Part shown: piece by piece, positions 12,195-20,274 of the stretch
How positions within the stretch are numbered: the stretch's first letter is position 1
Layout: each line of letters begins with the position of its first letter
DNA from: a virus
Direction: 5' to 3' (one strand)
DNA: 21,220 nt
Virus record (IMG/VR): IMGVR_UViG_3300043427_000319
Location: 1 to 21,220 of that record
Notes under the pieces: generated by a model
The model's database searches: none
Told to the model about the DNA's origin: nothing
What the model saw: only the letters and a program-made list of their open reading frames with translations
Translations under genes and position numbers: made by a program

Positions 12195-12529
12195 TGGGGG
12201 AAAAAGCGACATACGAAGTCGGTAAAGGCAAGCCGCCCAAAAACCGACGCTTCGGACAGCCCGAAGGTAATCCGCCAGGAAAAACATCAGAGCAGAAACG
12301 GGCCGAAATGAAGGCCGCAGAACTCGCCAAGCAGCTTGAGGCGCGATTGCTTGCAGCCTTGGCTGCTCAGGATGACGCAATGCTGATTGAAAGCCTCACG
12401 GGCAGCGACATTACGCGGCTGATCAAGACTGCGATGGATCGGGAATATGGAACGGCAACCCAGAAGGTTGAGGCATCTGGCACAAACGGCGGGCCGATGA
12501 TCATCCAGTGGAAAAATGCAGATAGTTGA
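12194..12529 (+). CDS. Probable small terminase subunit (DUF5681-type N-terminus)
   Basis: This 111-residue protein sits directly upstream of, and overlaps by 14 bases, the large terminase gene, where a small terminase is expected. It opens with a basic Gly/Pro segment, VGKGKPPKNRRFGQPEGNPP, the DUF5681 signature (KPPKNRRF..GQ..GNP.G), then a charged helical region (SEQKRAEMKAAELAKQLEA), and a C-terminal part with ATQKVEASGTNGGPMIIQWK. DUF5681 proteins are often annotated as phage packaging or small terminase proteins. No helix-turn-helix is obvious, so the call rests on position and family resemblance. Confidence 0.65.
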   Translation: MGEKATYEVGKGKPPKNRRFGQPEGNPPGKTSEQKRAEMKAAELAKQLEARLLAALAAQDDAMLIESLTGSDITRLIKTAMDREYGTATQKVEASGTNGGPMIIQWKNADS

Positions 12530-13775
12530 AATCCCATATGCGCCGCGAAAGCAGCTCATGCCGTTCCACAATCGTAAGGAGCGGTTCGCCTGCATCGTGG
12601 CGCATAGACGCTTCGGAAAAACCGTTGGCGCAATCAACGACCTAATCAAGACGGCAATCAGCCTTAATCGGCAAAACGTCCGATGCGGATACATTGCGCC
12701 ATACTTCAATCAGGCCAAGGCTATCGCGTGGGACTACATCAAAGAATTTACAGCGCCAATACCAGGCATGGCTTACAACGAGAGCGAACTGCGCGCCGAC
12801 TTCCCTAACGGCGCGCGACTTCGCTTGTTCGGGGCCGACAACTACGACGCAATGCGCGGGCTTTACTTTGATGATGTGGTGCTAGACGAGCCAGCGGACT
12901 TCCCGGCAAGCGCATGGCCGACCGTTATCCGGCCAGCTCTAGCTGATCGACAGGGGCGCGCCACCTTTATCGGCACGCCGAAAGGCAAGAATGAGTTTTG
13001 GGAAATCTACGACAAGGCAACGCGGGATGATAACTGGTTCACGCTTGTCCTGCCTGCTTCGCAGACGCTCATCATTTCGCAGATAGAACTGAACGACGCG
13101 CTAAAGACTATCGGGCCGGATCGTTACGATCAGGAATTTGAGTGCAGCTTTGAAGCCGCAATCATTGGCGCATACTATGGCAAAGAGATGAAGGAAATCG
13201 CCGCAGACGGACGCATTCGCAACATCATGCCAGAGCCGCAGATCGGCGTCGTGACGGCATGGGACTTGGGGATGGATGACACAACGTCAATCATTTTCGC
13301 CCAGTTCATCGGCAACGAAGTGCGGATCATTGACCACATTGAAGACAGCGGCCAAGGGTTGGCCCATTACGCGCGATTGCTGGCAGACAAGCCTTACACC
13401 TACCTTGCCCATGTCCTGCCCCACGATGCCCGCGTGCGAGAGCTTGGAAGCGGCGTATCACGCATTGAAACGCTAGAAGGCCTTGGCCTGCGCAACATCA
13501 CCATTGCGCCGAACATACCGATTGAGGACGGCATTCAGGCTGTCAGGAATGGTTTGGCGCGCACGTTCATTGACCAAAAACTGAACCGCCTCATTGAGGC
13601 GCTTAAGCAGTATCAGCGCGATTGGGACGACAAAAGCAAAACCTGGAGATCAAGGCCAAAGCACGATTGGACCAGCCATAGCGCAGACAGCATGCGCTAT
13701 CTGTTTGTCGGGTATCGGCAGGTGGATGACGAATGGGGCGCACCGCTGCGGCGCAATTTGCGAAGCGTGCTGTGA
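12516..13775 (+). CDS. terL: Terminase large subunit
   Basis: The 419-residue protein has the packaging ATPase motifs: Walker A AHRRFGKT at 29-36, Walker B VVLDEP with Asp124-Glu125, and a coupling segment TFIGTPKGKNEFW. The C-terminal RNase-H-like nuclease begins at VTAWDLGMDDTTSI (Asp250) and ends with the HDWTSHSADSMRY motif near 390. The length is typical of short TerL proteins, and both domains are intact. It powers DNA entry into the capsid and cuts concatemers. The next genes are tiny proteins and then an adaptor, with no portal. The packaging style (cos or pac) cannot be told without an alignment. Confidence 0.96.
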   Translation: MQIVEIPYAPRKQLMPFHNRKERFACIVAHRRFGKTVGAINDLIKTAISLNRQNVRCGYIAPYFNQAKAIAWDYIKEFTAPIPGMAYNESELRADFPNGARLRLFGADNYDAMRGLYFDDVVLDEPADFPASAWPTVIRPALADRQGRATFIGTPKGKNEFWEIYDKATRDDNWFTLVLPASQTLIISQIELNDALKTIGPDRYDQEFECSFEAAIIGAYYGKEMKEIAADGRIRNIMPEPQIGVVTAWDLGMDDTTSIIFAQFIGNEVRIIDHIEDSGQGLAHYARLLADKPYTYLAHVLPHDARVRELGSGVSRIETLEGLGLRNITIAPNIPIEDGIQAVRNGLARTFIDQKLNRLIEALKQYQRDWDDKSKTWRSRPKHDWTSHSADSMRYLFVGYRQVDDEWGAPLRRNLRSVL

Positions 13776-13811: not shown

Positions 13812-13988
13812 ATGAAAAAACCCAGCAAAGCAGACGCCAAGGTCGCCAAGGTCATGGGCGAATACAAGCGCGGAACGCTGCACGGCGGTGTTGATCCGGC
13901 TGGCCCTAAGAAAGCGCCCGTCGTGAAATCGCGCAAACAAGCCATCGCCATCGCTTTCAGCAAAGCTGGAAAGGCACGCAAGAAATGA
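13812..13988 (+). CDS. DUF6496-like small basic protein
   Basis: This 58-residue gene follows terminase after a 36-base gap containing AGGGGCC before the ATG. The centre reads VMGEYKRGTLHGG, then KAPVVKSRKQAIAIAFSKAG, and the end is KARKK. That matches the small DUF6496-type proteins (MGE-K-G-LHSG, KSRKQAIAIA) common in phage packaging clusters and of unknown function. It is very Lys-rich and lacks Cys. Its stop overlaps the next start (ATGA). A DNA-binding or virion-associated role is likely from composition only. Confidence 0.7.
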   Translation: MKKPSKADAKVAKVMGEYKRGTLHGGVDPAGPKKAPVVKSRKQAIAIAFSKAGKARKK

Positions 13989-14080
13989 AAAAGCCTGTCA
14001 AGTTTACGCCCTGCAAGGGATGCCCGAACCCCGCCAAGTGCAAGGCCATGGGCCGCTGCATGATGAAGGGCAAGAAGTGA
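13985..14080 (+). CDS. 31-residue Cys-rich basic microprotein
   Basis: This very short open frame is linked to both neighbours (ATGA before, TGATG after). It encodes KKPVKFTPCKGCPNPAKCKA followed by MGRCMMKGKK. Four Cys (10, 13, 19, 25) in C-x2-C-x5-C-x5-C spacing and about nine Lys suggest a zinc-knuckle-like nucleic-acid binder or a disulfide-stabilised peptide. The exact coupling on both sides is the main evidence that it is real. No family is recognised. Confidence 0.6.
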   Translation: MKKPVKFTPCKGCPNPAKCKAMGRCMMKGKK

Positions 14081-14226
14081 TGGCAAAGGGTCTTTATGCT
14101 GCGATTAACGCCAAACGCGCCCGCATCAAGGCCGGATCTGGCGAGAAAATGCGGAAGCCTGGCGACAAAGGCGCGCCCACGGCTGCGGCGTTCAAGGCTT
14201 CGGCAAAGACGGCGAAGAAAAAATGA
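14080..14226 (+). CDS. Small basic phage protein (MAKGLYAxINAKR type)
   Basis: This 48-residue protein starts at an ATG sharing one base with the previous stop. It opens AKGLYAAINAKRARIKAGSG, continues EKMRKPGDKGAPTAAAF, and ends in a KASAKTAKKK tail. I recognise this as a short protein seen in many phages near terminase or adaptor genes, without a proven function. The high Lys/Ala content fits a DNA-binding or packaged protein. A longer frame reaches back to 14020 but would override the Cys-rich gene; the internal ATG is better placed. Confidence 0.68.
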   Translation: MAKGLYAAINAKRARIKAGSGEKMRKPGDKGAPTAAAFKASAKTAKKK

Positions 14227-14522
14227 AAACACCGGCATGGCAGCGGAATGAAGGAAAGAACCCGAAAGGCGGTTTGAACGCCAAAGGCCGCGCGTCTGCC
14301 AAGGCTGAGGGCATGAACCTGAAGGCGCCCGTCAAGTCTGGCGACAACCCGCGCCGCGCCTCGTTCCTAGCCCGCATGGGCAACATGCCGGGGCCTGAGC
14401 GCAAGGATGGCGAACCGACGCGGCTTCTGTTATCCTTGAACGCATGGGGCGCGTCCAGCAAGGCCGACGCCAAGGCGAAGGCTAAGGCCATTTCGGCCCG
14501 CAATGAGGCGAAGAAGAAATGA
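14223..14522 (+). CDS. DUF6321-like phage protein
   Basis: The 99-residue protein carries the marks of DUF6321: AWQRNEGKNPKGGLNAKGRA at the start (5-24), LKAPVKSGDNPRRASFLARMGNMPGP in the middle, and GEPTRLLLSLNAWGASS. It ends in a Lys/Ala repeat tail (KADAKAKAKAISARNEAKKK). The family is widespread in phages and often lies beside small genes such as those just upstream. Its role is not known; Lys-rich tails are common in proteins that touch DNA inside the head. It is coupled to both neighbours by 4-base overlaps. Confidence 0.75.
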   Translation: MKTPAWQRNEGKNPKGGLNAKGRASAKAEGMNLKAPVKSGDNPRRASFLARMGNMPGPERKDGEPTRLLLSLNAWGASSKADAKAKAKAISARNEAKKK

Positions 14523-15130
14523 CCATCACCAACTTCGGCACACTCAAAACGGCCATTGCAGACACTCTGAACCGGGACGACCTCACATCGGCCATCCCAA
14601 CCTTCGTGCGGCTGGCCCAAGCGCAGCTCAATCGCAAGATCCGCTCGCATCGGCAGATCACGCGTGGCAGCCTGACGATTGACGCGCAGTTTGAAGCACT
14701 GCCGGCGGATTGGCTGGAAACGATCCGCATCACGATGGACGCCAACCCGATCCGCGTTCTGACGCAGATCAGCATGGACGACCTGACACGCTATCGGACC
14801 GCGACCGATAATTCTACAGATGCACCCGTTTACTTTTCTCACAACGGGACCGACATCGAACTGTTCCCCACGCCAAGCACGTCCTACACCGGGCAAATCA
14901 CATACTATGCTAAGATCGCGGCGCTGTCGGCTGATGGGGATACCAATTGGCTGCTGACAAATCACCCCGACGTTTATCTTTATGGCGCGCTGGTGCATAC
15001 TGCGCCATACCTGAAGGATGACGCGCGCATTGCCGTTTGGGCTGGATTGTTGGCGCAGGCAATGAACGAAATTGAAGAAGAAAGCAACGCGGCTCGGTTT
15101 GGCTCACCGCTGCGGATGAGGATGAAATAA
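14519..15130 (+). CDS. Head-to-tail adaptor (phage adaptor protein)
   Basis: The 203-residue protein has the layout of the podovirus adaptor family (P22 gp4, T7 gp11 or SU10 adaptor type): an N-terminal helical half beginning TNFGTLKTAIADTLNRDDLT, IPTFVRLAQAQLNRKIRSH, a beta-rich centre with ALPADWLETIRITMD and GTDIELFPTPS, and a C-terminal helix bundle (LTNHPDVYLYGALVHTAPYL). Such proteins form a ring under the portal and connect it to tail parts. It shares 4 bases with the upstream gene and 1 base with the fibre gene. The expected portal gene is not before it. Confidence 0.8.
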   Translation: MTITNFGTLKTAIADTLNRDDLTSAIPTFVRLAQAQLNRKIRSHRQITRGSLTIDAQFEALPADWLETIRITMDANPIRVLTQISMDDLTRYRTATDNSTDAPVYFSHNGTDIELFPTPSTSYTGQITYYAKIAALSADGDTNWLLTNHPDVYLYGALVHTAPYLKDDARIAVWAGLLAQAMNEIEEESNAARFGSPLRMRMK

Positions 15131-18589: not shown

Positions 18590-18945
18590 ATATCATCGAG
18601 GCCAACCGCCATCACATTGAGGCTGCGCTGGAATACAGCGGCGACACGCACATTTATGAAGATGTGGAGCGCGGTATCATTGAGGGCCGAATGCAGATAT
18701 GGCCGGGCAAGAAAAGCGCAGCCGTGACAGAGATAGTCCAATATGCTAGAAAGAAGGTGCTGCATATCTTTTTGGCCGGCGGTCAGATGGATGAACTGGT
18801 TGACATGATAGACAGTGCAGCAGCATGGGGCCGGACGCAGGGTTGCACGGCGCTTACAATGTCAGGGCGCAAAGGCTGGGAACGAGTGCTTGCGCCTCAT
18901 GGCTTTAAGCCCGTGATGATCGTGATGGAAAGGGCAATCGAATGA
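18586..18945 (+). CDS. GNAT-like small virion-cluster protein
   Basis: The ATG at 18586 overlaps the preceding stop (ATGA) with AAGGGTG upstream and gives 119 residues. An upstream open frame reaches 18484 but lies inside the previous gene. The second half has a GNAT-like arrangement: VTEIVQYARKKVLHIFLAGG, a helix DELVDMIDSAAAWGRTQGC, then TALTMSGRKGWERVLAPHGF and VMIVMERAIE. The GRKGW-x-RVL-x-x-x-GF turn is common in GNAT-type phage proteins; T7 gp13-like internal virion proteins look similar. The acetyl-CoA loop (R/Q-x-x-G-x-G/A) is not clear, so it may be non-catalytic. A role in tail or internal-core assembly is inferred from position. Confidence 0.62.
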   Translation: MNIIEANRHHIEAALEYSGDTHIYEDVERGIIEGRMQIWPGKKSAAVTEIVQYARKKVLHIFLAGGQMDELVDMIDSAAAWGRTQGCTALTMSGRKGWERVLAPHGFKPVMIVMERAIE

Positions 18946-19643
18946 GCGGCGGCGGAAAAGGCGGAAGCTCCACAACGCAAGTAAAGGTTCCGGCTTGGCT
19001 GGAAAGCGCGGCGCGTCAAGATCTAGCGCGCGCTGATCAACTGGCCCAGATTGGATACACTCCATACTACGGGCCGGATGTCGCGGCGTTCAGCCCTATG
19101 CAGCAAGCAGCGTTTGAAGGCACAAACCAAGCCGCTGCGGCGTTCGGGATGCCCACCGCGCAAGGCGCGGGGATGCCAGCACCTCAGACTTTTGCGGGCG
19201 GAGTGCAGGGCTATTCGTCGGCTCCGCTCTATCAGCAATCGCTTGACGCGCTGCGTGCTGAAGCGCCGGGACAATATGCGGCCCTGACTGCGCCATTCAT
19301 CAACCCAGTCACGGGCGCTGCGCCGGCTGCGCCGTTTGGGACCAGTGGCGCACAAATAACGCCGAACACGCCAACAAGCGCAGCACTAATCGGTGCAATG
19401 AGTGGCGGGGGCGGTGGCGGAGGTGTTCCTGTCAGAACTGGAACATCTGGCGGGGGGAAGGGTGGAACTACATCAATCAACACGCCGATGTCCTACCTTC
19501 CGGGCGGCGTGAATACGGCAAATCCGAGCAGCACCATTAATAGGGTTGCCGCAGCGCTTTCCGGCCCGCAGGGCGCGCCAACCTCATCTAGCCGCCCAGT
19601 GGCGCGGCCTACAACTACGACAGCCACCAGTGGAGGCAAGTAA
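18942..19643 (+). CDS. Gly/Pro-rich internal-virion or tail-like protein
   Basis: The 233-residue protein overlaps the GNAT-like gene by 4 bases. Its N-terminal 70 residues form a recognisable phage virion segment (KVPAWLESAARQDLARADQL, GYTPYYGPDVAAFSPMQQAA). The rest is low-complexity: Ala/Pro/Gly runs, a stretch of Gly-Gly repeats near residue 154, and a Thr/Ser-rich end. No enzyme motif is present. In podovirus-like phages such proteins lie between tail genes and the lysozyme and are part of the ejection apparatus or hub; the assignment is positional. Confidence 0.62.
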   Translation: MSGGGKGGSSTTQVKVPAWLESAARQDLARADQLAQIGYTPYYGPDVAAFSPMQQAAFEGTNQAAAAFGMPTAQGAGMPAPQTFAGGVQGYSSAPLYQQSLDALRAEAPGQYAALTAPFINPVTGAAPAAPFGTSGAQITPNTPTSAALIGAMSGGGGGGGVPVRTGTSGGGKGGTTSINTPMSYLPGGVNTANPSSTINRVAAALSGPQGAPTSSSRPVARPTTTTATSGGK

Positions 19644-19644
19644 A

Positions 19645-20274
19645 ATGTCAGGCGCATCAAATCCCGCGCAAACTATGCAGCCACAGGCAGGCGGAAACGT
19701 GTTCAATCAAGCCGCCGGCGCTTACAATGCCGCGCTGCAAGGCCCGAACATTGCGCAGTTTGCCAACCCGTTCCAGCAGCAAGTGATCAACCGCACGATG
19801 GGCGACATTGGCGCGGCGCAACAGATGGCGCAGAACCAACTGGGCGCACAAGCAACGGCAGCGCGGGCTTTCGGTGGATCTCGCCAAGGCGTGGCGGAGG
19901 CGCAGACCAACGCAGGCTTTATCAAACAACTGGCTGACACATCTGCCAACTTGAACATGCAGGGCTTCAACACGGCTCTCGGTGCGGCGCAAAATCAACA
20001 GCAGATGCTGTCCCAACTTGCCGGTCAGGGCTTCGGCTTCGGCCAGCAACTGAACCAGCAGCAAATGCAGCAAGGCGCGCTGCAGCAAGGCCTGATGCAG
20101 TCTCTGATTGACGCCGCGCGGGGGCAATATGCTGGCTTCACTGGCGCTCCGCAGCAGGCTCTGACGCTTCCGTTGGCAGCACTTGGTGGCGCGAGCATGG
20201 GGCAGCAAACGCAGACGCAGACCCAGAAGCCGGGCCTGTTTAACTATCTGTCTCTGGGGCTTGGGCTGCTCTGA
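19645..20274 (+). CDS. Gln/Ala-rich internal virion-like protein
   Basis: The start is the ATG at 19645, with GGAGG 8 bases upstream, giving 209 residues; upstream in-frame codons overlap the previous gene and look unlike protein. It has an Ala/Gln-rich alpha-helical body: FANPFQQQVINRTMGDIGAA, QQMAQNQLGAQATAARAFGG, a long helix with FIKQLADTSANLNMQGFNTA, and QQLNQQQMQQGALQQGLMQS. A Gly-hydrophobic C-terminus follows (FNYLSLGLGLL). This is the style of T7 gp14-type or P22 ejection proteins that leave the head with the DNA. No catalytic motif is seen. It is coupled to the tail lysozyme gene by one base. Confidence 0.62.
   Translation: MSGASNPAQTMQPQAGGNVFNQAAGAYNAALQGPNIAQFANPFQQQVINRTMGDIGAAQQMAQNQLGAQATAARAFGGSRQGVAEAQTNAGFIKQLADTSANLNMQGFNTALGAAQNQQQMLSQLAGQGFGFGQQLNQQQMQQGALQQGLMQSLIDAARGQYAGFTGAPQQALTLPLAALGGASMGQQTQTQTQKPGLFNYLSLGLGLL

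Follow-up and report, generated by a model that had tools for sequence, protein, structure and literature searches.

What do four very small and strongly basic genes do between the terminase and the neck adaptor of a virus? They lie in an IMG/VR record of 21,220 bases (57% GC), classed as linear and possibly a fragment, which was analysed over its whole length and is called the window hereafter. A preliminary description of its sequence proposed that the four products condense or neutralise packaged DNA, or are ejected with it, as a set of nucleoid-like proteins lying where portal and scaffold genes are usually found. Below, we argue that the four genes encode putative holders of the viral DNA, which probably act during or after packaging.

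A cassette of four small basic genes

The four genes are present as first described, with 58, 31, 48 and 99 residues and overlaps of 1 or 4 bases (successively 4, 1 and 4 bases from ORF1 to ORF4; Table 1). A gap of 36 bases separates terL from ORF1, while the start of the adaptor gene overlaps the stop of ORF4 by 4 bases and the gene after the adaptor starts at 15130, with a 1-base overlap. Further downstream on the same strand, positions 18942–19640 weakly match a family of DNA ejection proteins (phrog_4287, E 2.5e-4).

Table 1. The four cassette genes and their two flanking anchors in the window.
Feature	Description	Position	Strand	Evidence
terL	Terminase large subunit, upstream anchor outside the cassette	12516..13775	+	Pfam Terminase_6N E 2.2e-7; phrog_2 E 1.3e-37
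ORF1	58 aa, DUF6496 family, two predicted helices	13812..13988	+	PF20106 E 3.4e-9
ORF2	31 aa, Cys4 mini-protein C-x2-C-x5-C-x5-C, possibly zinc-knuckle-like	13985..14080	+	Conserved Cys, pN/pS
ORF3	48 aa, phrog_16028 family	14080..14226	+	phrog_16028 E 2.8e-24
ORF4	99 aa, DUF6321 domain and basic C-terminal helix	14223..14522	+	PF19846 E 2.9e-19; phrog_4689 E 2.1e-26
Adaptor	SU10-type adaptor, downstream anchor	14519..15130	+	PF24175 (SU10_adaptor) E 1.5e-40

All four proteins are basic and lysine-rich, as had been noticed at the outset: for ORF1, ORF2, ORF3 and ORF4, the isoelectric points are 10.8, 10.1, 10.9 and 10.9 and the net charges +14, +10, +12 and +15, with lysine accounting for 65–90% of K+R. 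Per residue, the cassette ORFs carry a net charge of +0.15 to +0.32, against +0.07 at most in the 26 non-cassette ORFs of the window taken as genes, a comparison set from which 19643–20274 was left out. Moreover, purifying selection acts on all four frames. Their pooled pN/pS values against 8 relatives are 0.18, 0.12, 0.21 and 0.13, respectively (the value for ORF1 includes a comparison with L066, shortened by a contig end), and the frames are thus conserved in relatives, on which the initial proposal depended. This selection and the family matches detailed below rule out chance ORFs.

Two further explanations were rejected. First, the C-terminal lysine runs might have been a side effect of the overlapping starts, but the tails are equally basic when there is no overlap: K+R in the last six residues reach 4.00 without overlap (n = 41) vs. 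3.74 with overlap (n = 95) in the ORF1 family, 3.88 (n = 41) vs. 3.57 (n = 103) in the ORF3 family and 3.22 (n = 32) vs. 2.89 (n = 131) in the ORF4 family. Tails rich in lysine thus remain in genes whose stop is free of any overlapping start codon, and the start of the next gene does not account for them. Second, the four proteins are not copies of one another, all six profile–profile comparisons having a probability below 1%; judged from these profiles, the cassette is made of four distinct protein families.

The four protein families

The four Cys reported in the 31 residues of ORF2 were found, and all of them are invariant in an alignment of 10 sequences. Among 74 ORFs (found in 74 of 80 listed loci) retrieved with a pattern that already fixed the first three Cys, the fourth lies 4–6 residues past the third in 73. 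ORF2 thus has four conserved residues of metal-binding type at fixed spacing, and is possibly zinc-knuckle-like. Searches of Pfam, PHROGs, NCBIfam and PADLOC with ORF2 were negative, as were those of Pfam and PHROGs with five of its relatives. The mini-protein, in the form C-x2-C-P-x-P-x-K-C-x5-C (window 13985–14080; L342–L460), is a widespread phage family.

ORF3 matches phrog_16028 over profile positions 3–49 of 50, and its family shows the consensus GLYANIxAKRxRIKAGSGEKMRKPG, with 15 invariant columns in 44 sequences. Two sets of candidates were discarded as ORF3-like: “LYxNINKKKK” peptides from two Pelagibacter phages, which score no better than E 0.12 and 9.6 with the profile, and gp59 of Syn5, which the profile does not report. 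In tblastn searches of the phage collection, ORF3 gave no match and ORF2 three matches only (E 5–9), but such absence means little because the low-complexity filter was on; the profile did find ORF3 in P-SCSP1i.

ORF4 belongs to PF19846 (DUF6321), with 69.9 bits for a cut-off of 28.5 and all 72 positions of the profile covered (1–72). Its AlphaFold2 model is a compact helical fold (pLDDT 90.8, pTM 0.75), and 12 columns are invariant in 70 sequences, W, R and P residues among them, as would be expected of a domain with a specific partner. The phrog_11180 profile matches ORF3 then ORF4 at successive positions, which indicates that both are joined in one protein there. Searches of PDB sequences with ORF4, ORF1 and ORF3, singly and as profiles, gave nothing better than E 0.87. 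Likewise, the best hits of the ORF4 model in the PDB are at E 5.9 with Foldseek and, among 16 chains, at Z 2.4 with VIA-align, and this lack of a match does not make the fold a new one. For the cassette proteins of the window, nothing was obtained from NCBIfam or PADLOC. The ORF4 fold also matches part of two uncultured-phage proteins of BFVD, A0A6J5N5R9 and A0A6J5R4H4, of 679 and 1143 aa and annotated as Ferritin/DPS-domain and AAA-domain proteins, respectively.

A domain that is predicted to be compact, is invariant at W, R and P residues and is encoded by a gene overlapping the adaptor gene in the window would also suit an assembly chaperone for neck proteins, the positive charge of the cassette being then incidental. 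We hold this to be very improbable, since a strong lysine bias is common to four distinct families, whereas the 26 other ORFs of the window have at most +0.07 net charge per residue. The distribution of DUF6496, the family of ORF1, argues in the same direction, with one match per genome in nine bacterial genomes searched whole and no phage neck gene recognised by eye in five bacterial DUF6496 neighbourhoods.

ORF1 scores 37.4 bits against PF20106 (DUF6496; cut-off 24). Its AlphaFold2 model, made of two helices, is less sure than that of ORF4 (pLDDT 81.3, pTM 0.62), and a fold search with this model against the PDB gave nothing significant. DUF6496-like letters seen by eye in a protein of Sf-CH8 went unreported by the ORF1 profile at E up to 10. 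In a scan for DUF6496 in bacteria and archaea (80/111 loci kept), 7 of the 80 loci also hold ORF3 or ORF4 matches, so that some of these “bacterial” loci are probably phage DNA. When the 87 rows of the DUF6496 profile are sorted by what follows the domain, 67 end soon after it, 12 bear a lysine/arginine-rich extension and 8 another extension; these classes are crude, as the SAP/Rho_N expression matched none and Rho_N-like cases fall in the other two. A Pfam scan covering 10 of 19 extended proteins found HC2 (PF07382) over the cut-off in two (from a Chitinophaga genome and a Ramlibacter MAG) and, below the cut-off, HC2 in two and Rho_N in six of the remaining eight, while NCBIfam histone H1-like models matched four HC2-type bacterial tails below their cut-offs only. 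DUF6496 proteins with histone H1-like lysine/alanine tails can be seen in bacterial genomes and MAGs (L320:7911-8471, L333:2831-3253, L306 and L307).

The tailed bacterial proteins are a candidate family of nucleoid proteins. HC2 is a low-complexity family, the matches of which are partly driven by composition, and the tails support an association with DNA without proving it. ORF1 shares its richness in lysine with the bacterial histone H1-like proteins, some bacterial DUF6496 proteins even bearing an HC2-scoring tail, but phage ORF1 has no such tail and, like ORF2, ORF3 and ORF4, no HC2 match at E ≤ 1.

Conservation and genomic context of the cassette

Gene order was examined in 247 sequences (the window, a piece of it, and the loci fetched for its relatives). 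All four ORFs occur together in 11 of them, i.e., in 8 other contigs once the window, its piece and one duplicate are removed. The preliminary description had asked whether the order of the four genes is conserved: ORF1–ORF2–ORF3–ORF4–adaptor is kept in 8/8 of these contigs, with terL upstream in all six that reach that far. The start of the adaptor gene overlaps ORF4 in five of the eight and is separated from it by about 200 bases in the other three, so that coupling to the adaptor is not universal. Outside the all-four contigs, the pieces of the cassette reshuffle, often staying close: within 1.5 kb, ORF3 accompanies 47 and ORF1 24 of the 80 matches listed for ORF4, ORF4 accompanies 48 and ORF1 16 of the 80 listed for ORF3, and ORF4 accompanies 28 and ORF3 16 of the 79 listed for ORF1, though relatives were chosen by similarity to window genes, on contigs that are often short, and these linkage counts do not amount to a random sample.

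A scan with a degenerate Cys4 pattern returned at least 120 loci, close relatives of the window included. Of the 120 listed, 111 were counted (the other 9 had no motif-bearing ORF of at most 120 aa) and compared with 120 control loci picked by an unrelated 14-base pattern. Within 2 kb, ORF1, ORF3 or ORF4 is found in 84/111 listed Cys4 loci vs. 0/120 controls, the SU10-type adaptor in 42/111 vs. 1/120, and a terL of this type in 48/111 vs. 11/120; beyond 2 kb, the controls show ORF1, ORF3 and ORF4 matches in 1, 2 and 2 loci. The tiny basic cassette is therefore a real, recurring gene set.

The preliminary description held that portal and scaffold genes usually lie in this slot. This does not apply to G001, a close relative of the window, in which both genes and that of the major capsid protein are some 9–13 kb downstream of ORF4. 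The order in G001, established for genes of at least 120 codons and read in part with PHROGs, is terS, terL, (ORF1–ORF4), adaptor, a 281-aa gene, the gene of a 504-aa protein homologous to the product of the 490-aa virion structural gene of the window, a 216-aa gene, a 265-aa gene, a gene of DNA-ejection type, a 220-aa gene, one whose PHROG description reads “released from the phage upon host infection”, a 582-aa gene and then the genes for portal, scaffold and major head protein. Since the portal, scaffold and capsid genes are intact downstream, nothing has been replaced by the cassette.

The two ejection-related matches of G001 and the small size and basic nature of the cassette proteins are what could be anticipated if the latter were ejected early-infection proteins, riding with the DNA to protect it or to target the nucleoid, transcription or translation of the host. 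This reading nevertheless appears quite unlikely to us. The cassette has no match to PADLOC models (which cover defence systems only), and DUF6321 is common to phages of cyanobacteria, Pelagibacter and Methylophilales, a range more in keeping with a phage-intrinsic partner than with a target in the host.

In tblastn, ORF4 matched 487 of 50,697 phage records, which come mostly from Synechococcus, Prochlorococcus and Pelagibacter phages and include many near-identical isolates. In T4-like cyanophages, DUF6321 stands at the end of proteins of 165–517 residues encoded between terS and terL (Sf-CH8, S-SM1, Syn9, S-CREM2, S-SZBM1 and S-SCSM1), while in S-CREM1 a stand-alone DUF6321 gene precedes terL, with one small gene between them. 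P-SSM4 departs from this in both location and arrangement, its gene being beside DNA-metabolism genes. In MEP402 (Methylophilales phage) and Hodr (Pelagibacter phage), DUF6321 keeps company with other lysine-rich mini-genes that precede terL, from which two and six genes separate it, respectively; in the Pelagibacter phages Greip and HTVC204P, it belongs to a series of small genes adjoining DNA-metabolism genes. In the T7-like Prochlorococcus phage P-SCSP1i, mutually overlapping homologues of ORF4 and ORF3 (E 7e-22 and 9e-29) sit between the genes for the major capsid protein and tail tubular gp11. Syn5, and P-SSP7 over 45,000 of its 45,176 bases, gave no convincing match to any cassette ORF.

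Several neighbouring genes deserve mention in their own right. Other lysine-rich mini-genes precede terL in MEP402 (gp48, gp49 and gp51; L003:7882-8717), a 132-aa protein of Hodr (L002:8306-9386) looks by eye like gp49 joined to gp48, and gp59 of Syn5 (L256:42932-43060) is a lysine-rich mini-gene immediately before terL. Moreover, DUF6321 proteins of 81–83 aa from Greip (L004:3876-4127) and the Synechococcus phage MinM2 (L005:4995-5240) are annotated “RecA-like recombination protein”, which looks like a misannotation.

The recurrent proximity to terL, both in the Cys4 loci and in phages as different as S-CREM1, five cyanophages with a terS–terL placement (Sf-CH8, S-SCSM1, S-CREM2, S-SM1 and Syn9) and MEP402, brings us to the main rival explanation. 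Here, the proteins would be packaging cofactors foreign to the virion, working on the terminase, the concatemer ends or the portal and leaving before the particle is completed. Against it, the P-SCSP1i pair stands between capsid and tail genes, and no terL appears in the stretches seen of P-SSM4, Greip and HTVC204P. We consider such cofactors a serious but rather unlikely solution, for which the composition of virions is also relevant.

Virion evidence and possible function

In S-CREM2, gp137, the C-terminal part of which matches DUF6321 over the Pfam cut-off, is listed among the proteins of CsCl-purified virions with 4 unique peptides and 4.1% coverage (PMC10665884, Table 3). The adjacent gp136 (L253:4302-5015), a lysine-rich protein of 237 aa, is likewise reported in virions, with 8 unique peptides. 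In S-SCSM1, for which mass spectrometry is reported to have identified 45 virion proteins (PMC9602691), ORF29 (SSCSM1_29, 517 aa) has DUF6321 at residues 445–515 and is labelled “virion protein” in its record. In contrast, the DUF6321 protein of S-SZBM1, SSZBM1_192, is absent from the 30 virion proteins of the published list (PMC9146016, Table 1). DUF6321-bearing proteins are thus reported in the virions of two phages out of three, the two positive preparations speaking against non-virion cofactors and the S-SZBM1 list in their favour. Reported totals of virion proteins are 14 for S-CREM1 and 41 for S-SM1. The large cyanophage proteins could, however, owe their presence in virions to their other regions.

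P-SCSP1u is near-identical to P-SCSP1i and should therefore encode homologues of ORF4 and ORF3. Its cryo-EM description mentions no decoration protein, and the account of model building names the capsid, portal, adaptor, fibre and nozzle (PMC10575957). That the pair goes unreported in this capsid would agree with packaging cofactors, but flexible internal proteins would be invisible in such cryo-EM.

Altogether, the idea of a DNA-condensing or ejected nucleoid-like set survives in part. In its favour, the genes are real, conserved and linked to terminase and neck genes, two cyanophages are reported to have large DUF6321 proteins in their virions, and the modules that accompany DUF6496 in some bacteria, which are histone H1-like or, under the cut-off, Rho_N-like, point to DNA; support for DNA-associated virion proteins as the function of the cassette is moderate and indirect. 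What finds no support is bulk neutralisation or condensation. ORF4 is predicted to be compact and has strictly conserved residues, it overlaps a low-copy neck gene, and one set of the four proteins brings a net charge of +51 for about 80,000 phosphates (assuming a genome of 40 kb), so that neutralising 10% of them would require about 157 copies of each. The product of a neck adaptor gene is normally present in about 12 copies. The cryo-EM of P-SCSP1u, with no decoration protein reported, points the same way. Bulk charge neutralisation by the cassette is thus unlikely.

The reading that we favour, tentatively and at a little under even confidence, is that of four mini-proteins encoded among packaging and neck genes and associating with phage DNA, either at the packaging vertex or within the head. 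The cassette would be made together with the terminase and the neck adaptor, in amounts nearer those of neck proteins than of the capsid protein. ORF1 and ORF3 would contact DNA through their lysine-rich helices and tails, ORF2 might be a zinc-knuckle-like nucleic-acid-binding peptide, and ORF4 would be a small folded domain binding DNA, a head or terminase protein, or both. Of the set, the DUF6321 part at least would remain with the particle. We infer the DNA contact, the metal binding, the location in the head (that of the small stand-alone forms included) and the low copy number.

Known systems offer partial likenesses. The internal head proteins IPI–IPIII of T4 are small, basic and packaged with the DNA, as is proposed for the cassette proteins, which are also small and basic; a capsid-targeting sequence and cleavage by the prohead protease are features of the T4 proteins. 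Basic proteins encoded by the virus itself also occur in the virions of PBCV-1, where A278L and A282L are described as found with the DNA and the MC1-like A437L is listed at about 2,178 copies (PMC3281028). PBCV-1, however, is an algal virus, and its basic proteins are reported in hundreds to thousands of copies. Regarding the families themselves, ORF1, ORF4 and ORF3 are members of DUF6496, DUF6321 and phrog_16028 by profile score, all three catalogued without a function, and the window adds their joint operon with a Cys4 mini-protein. In the open-licence PMC literature, no paper was found that names DUF6321 or DUF6496, no description of this joint operon was found, and searches for lysine-rich or histone-like phage virion proteins brought up nothing on the cassette families.

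At its broadest, the hypothesis would be that of a transferable phage “chromatin kit”, four mini-protein families travelling together or in part among different tailed phages (DUF6321 also as the last domain of larger basic proteins in cyanophages) to organise the genome in packaging and in the head. We mention it as a speculation that is more likely wrong than right by a wide measure.

These cassette families, catalogued without a function, are common in aquatic phages. Because the four genes are conserved together and linked to terminase and neck genes, they allow a direct test of whether tailed phages have dedicated proteins for handling packaged DNA, besides motors and cations, while the uncatalogued 31-aa Cys4 family illustrates how conserved small-protein content has been overlooked by phage annotation. 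According to PMC3281028, evidence is lacking that phage genomes are neutralised by basic proteins to any great extent. If true, a DNA-associated cassette would change the common assumption about basic proteins in phage genomes.
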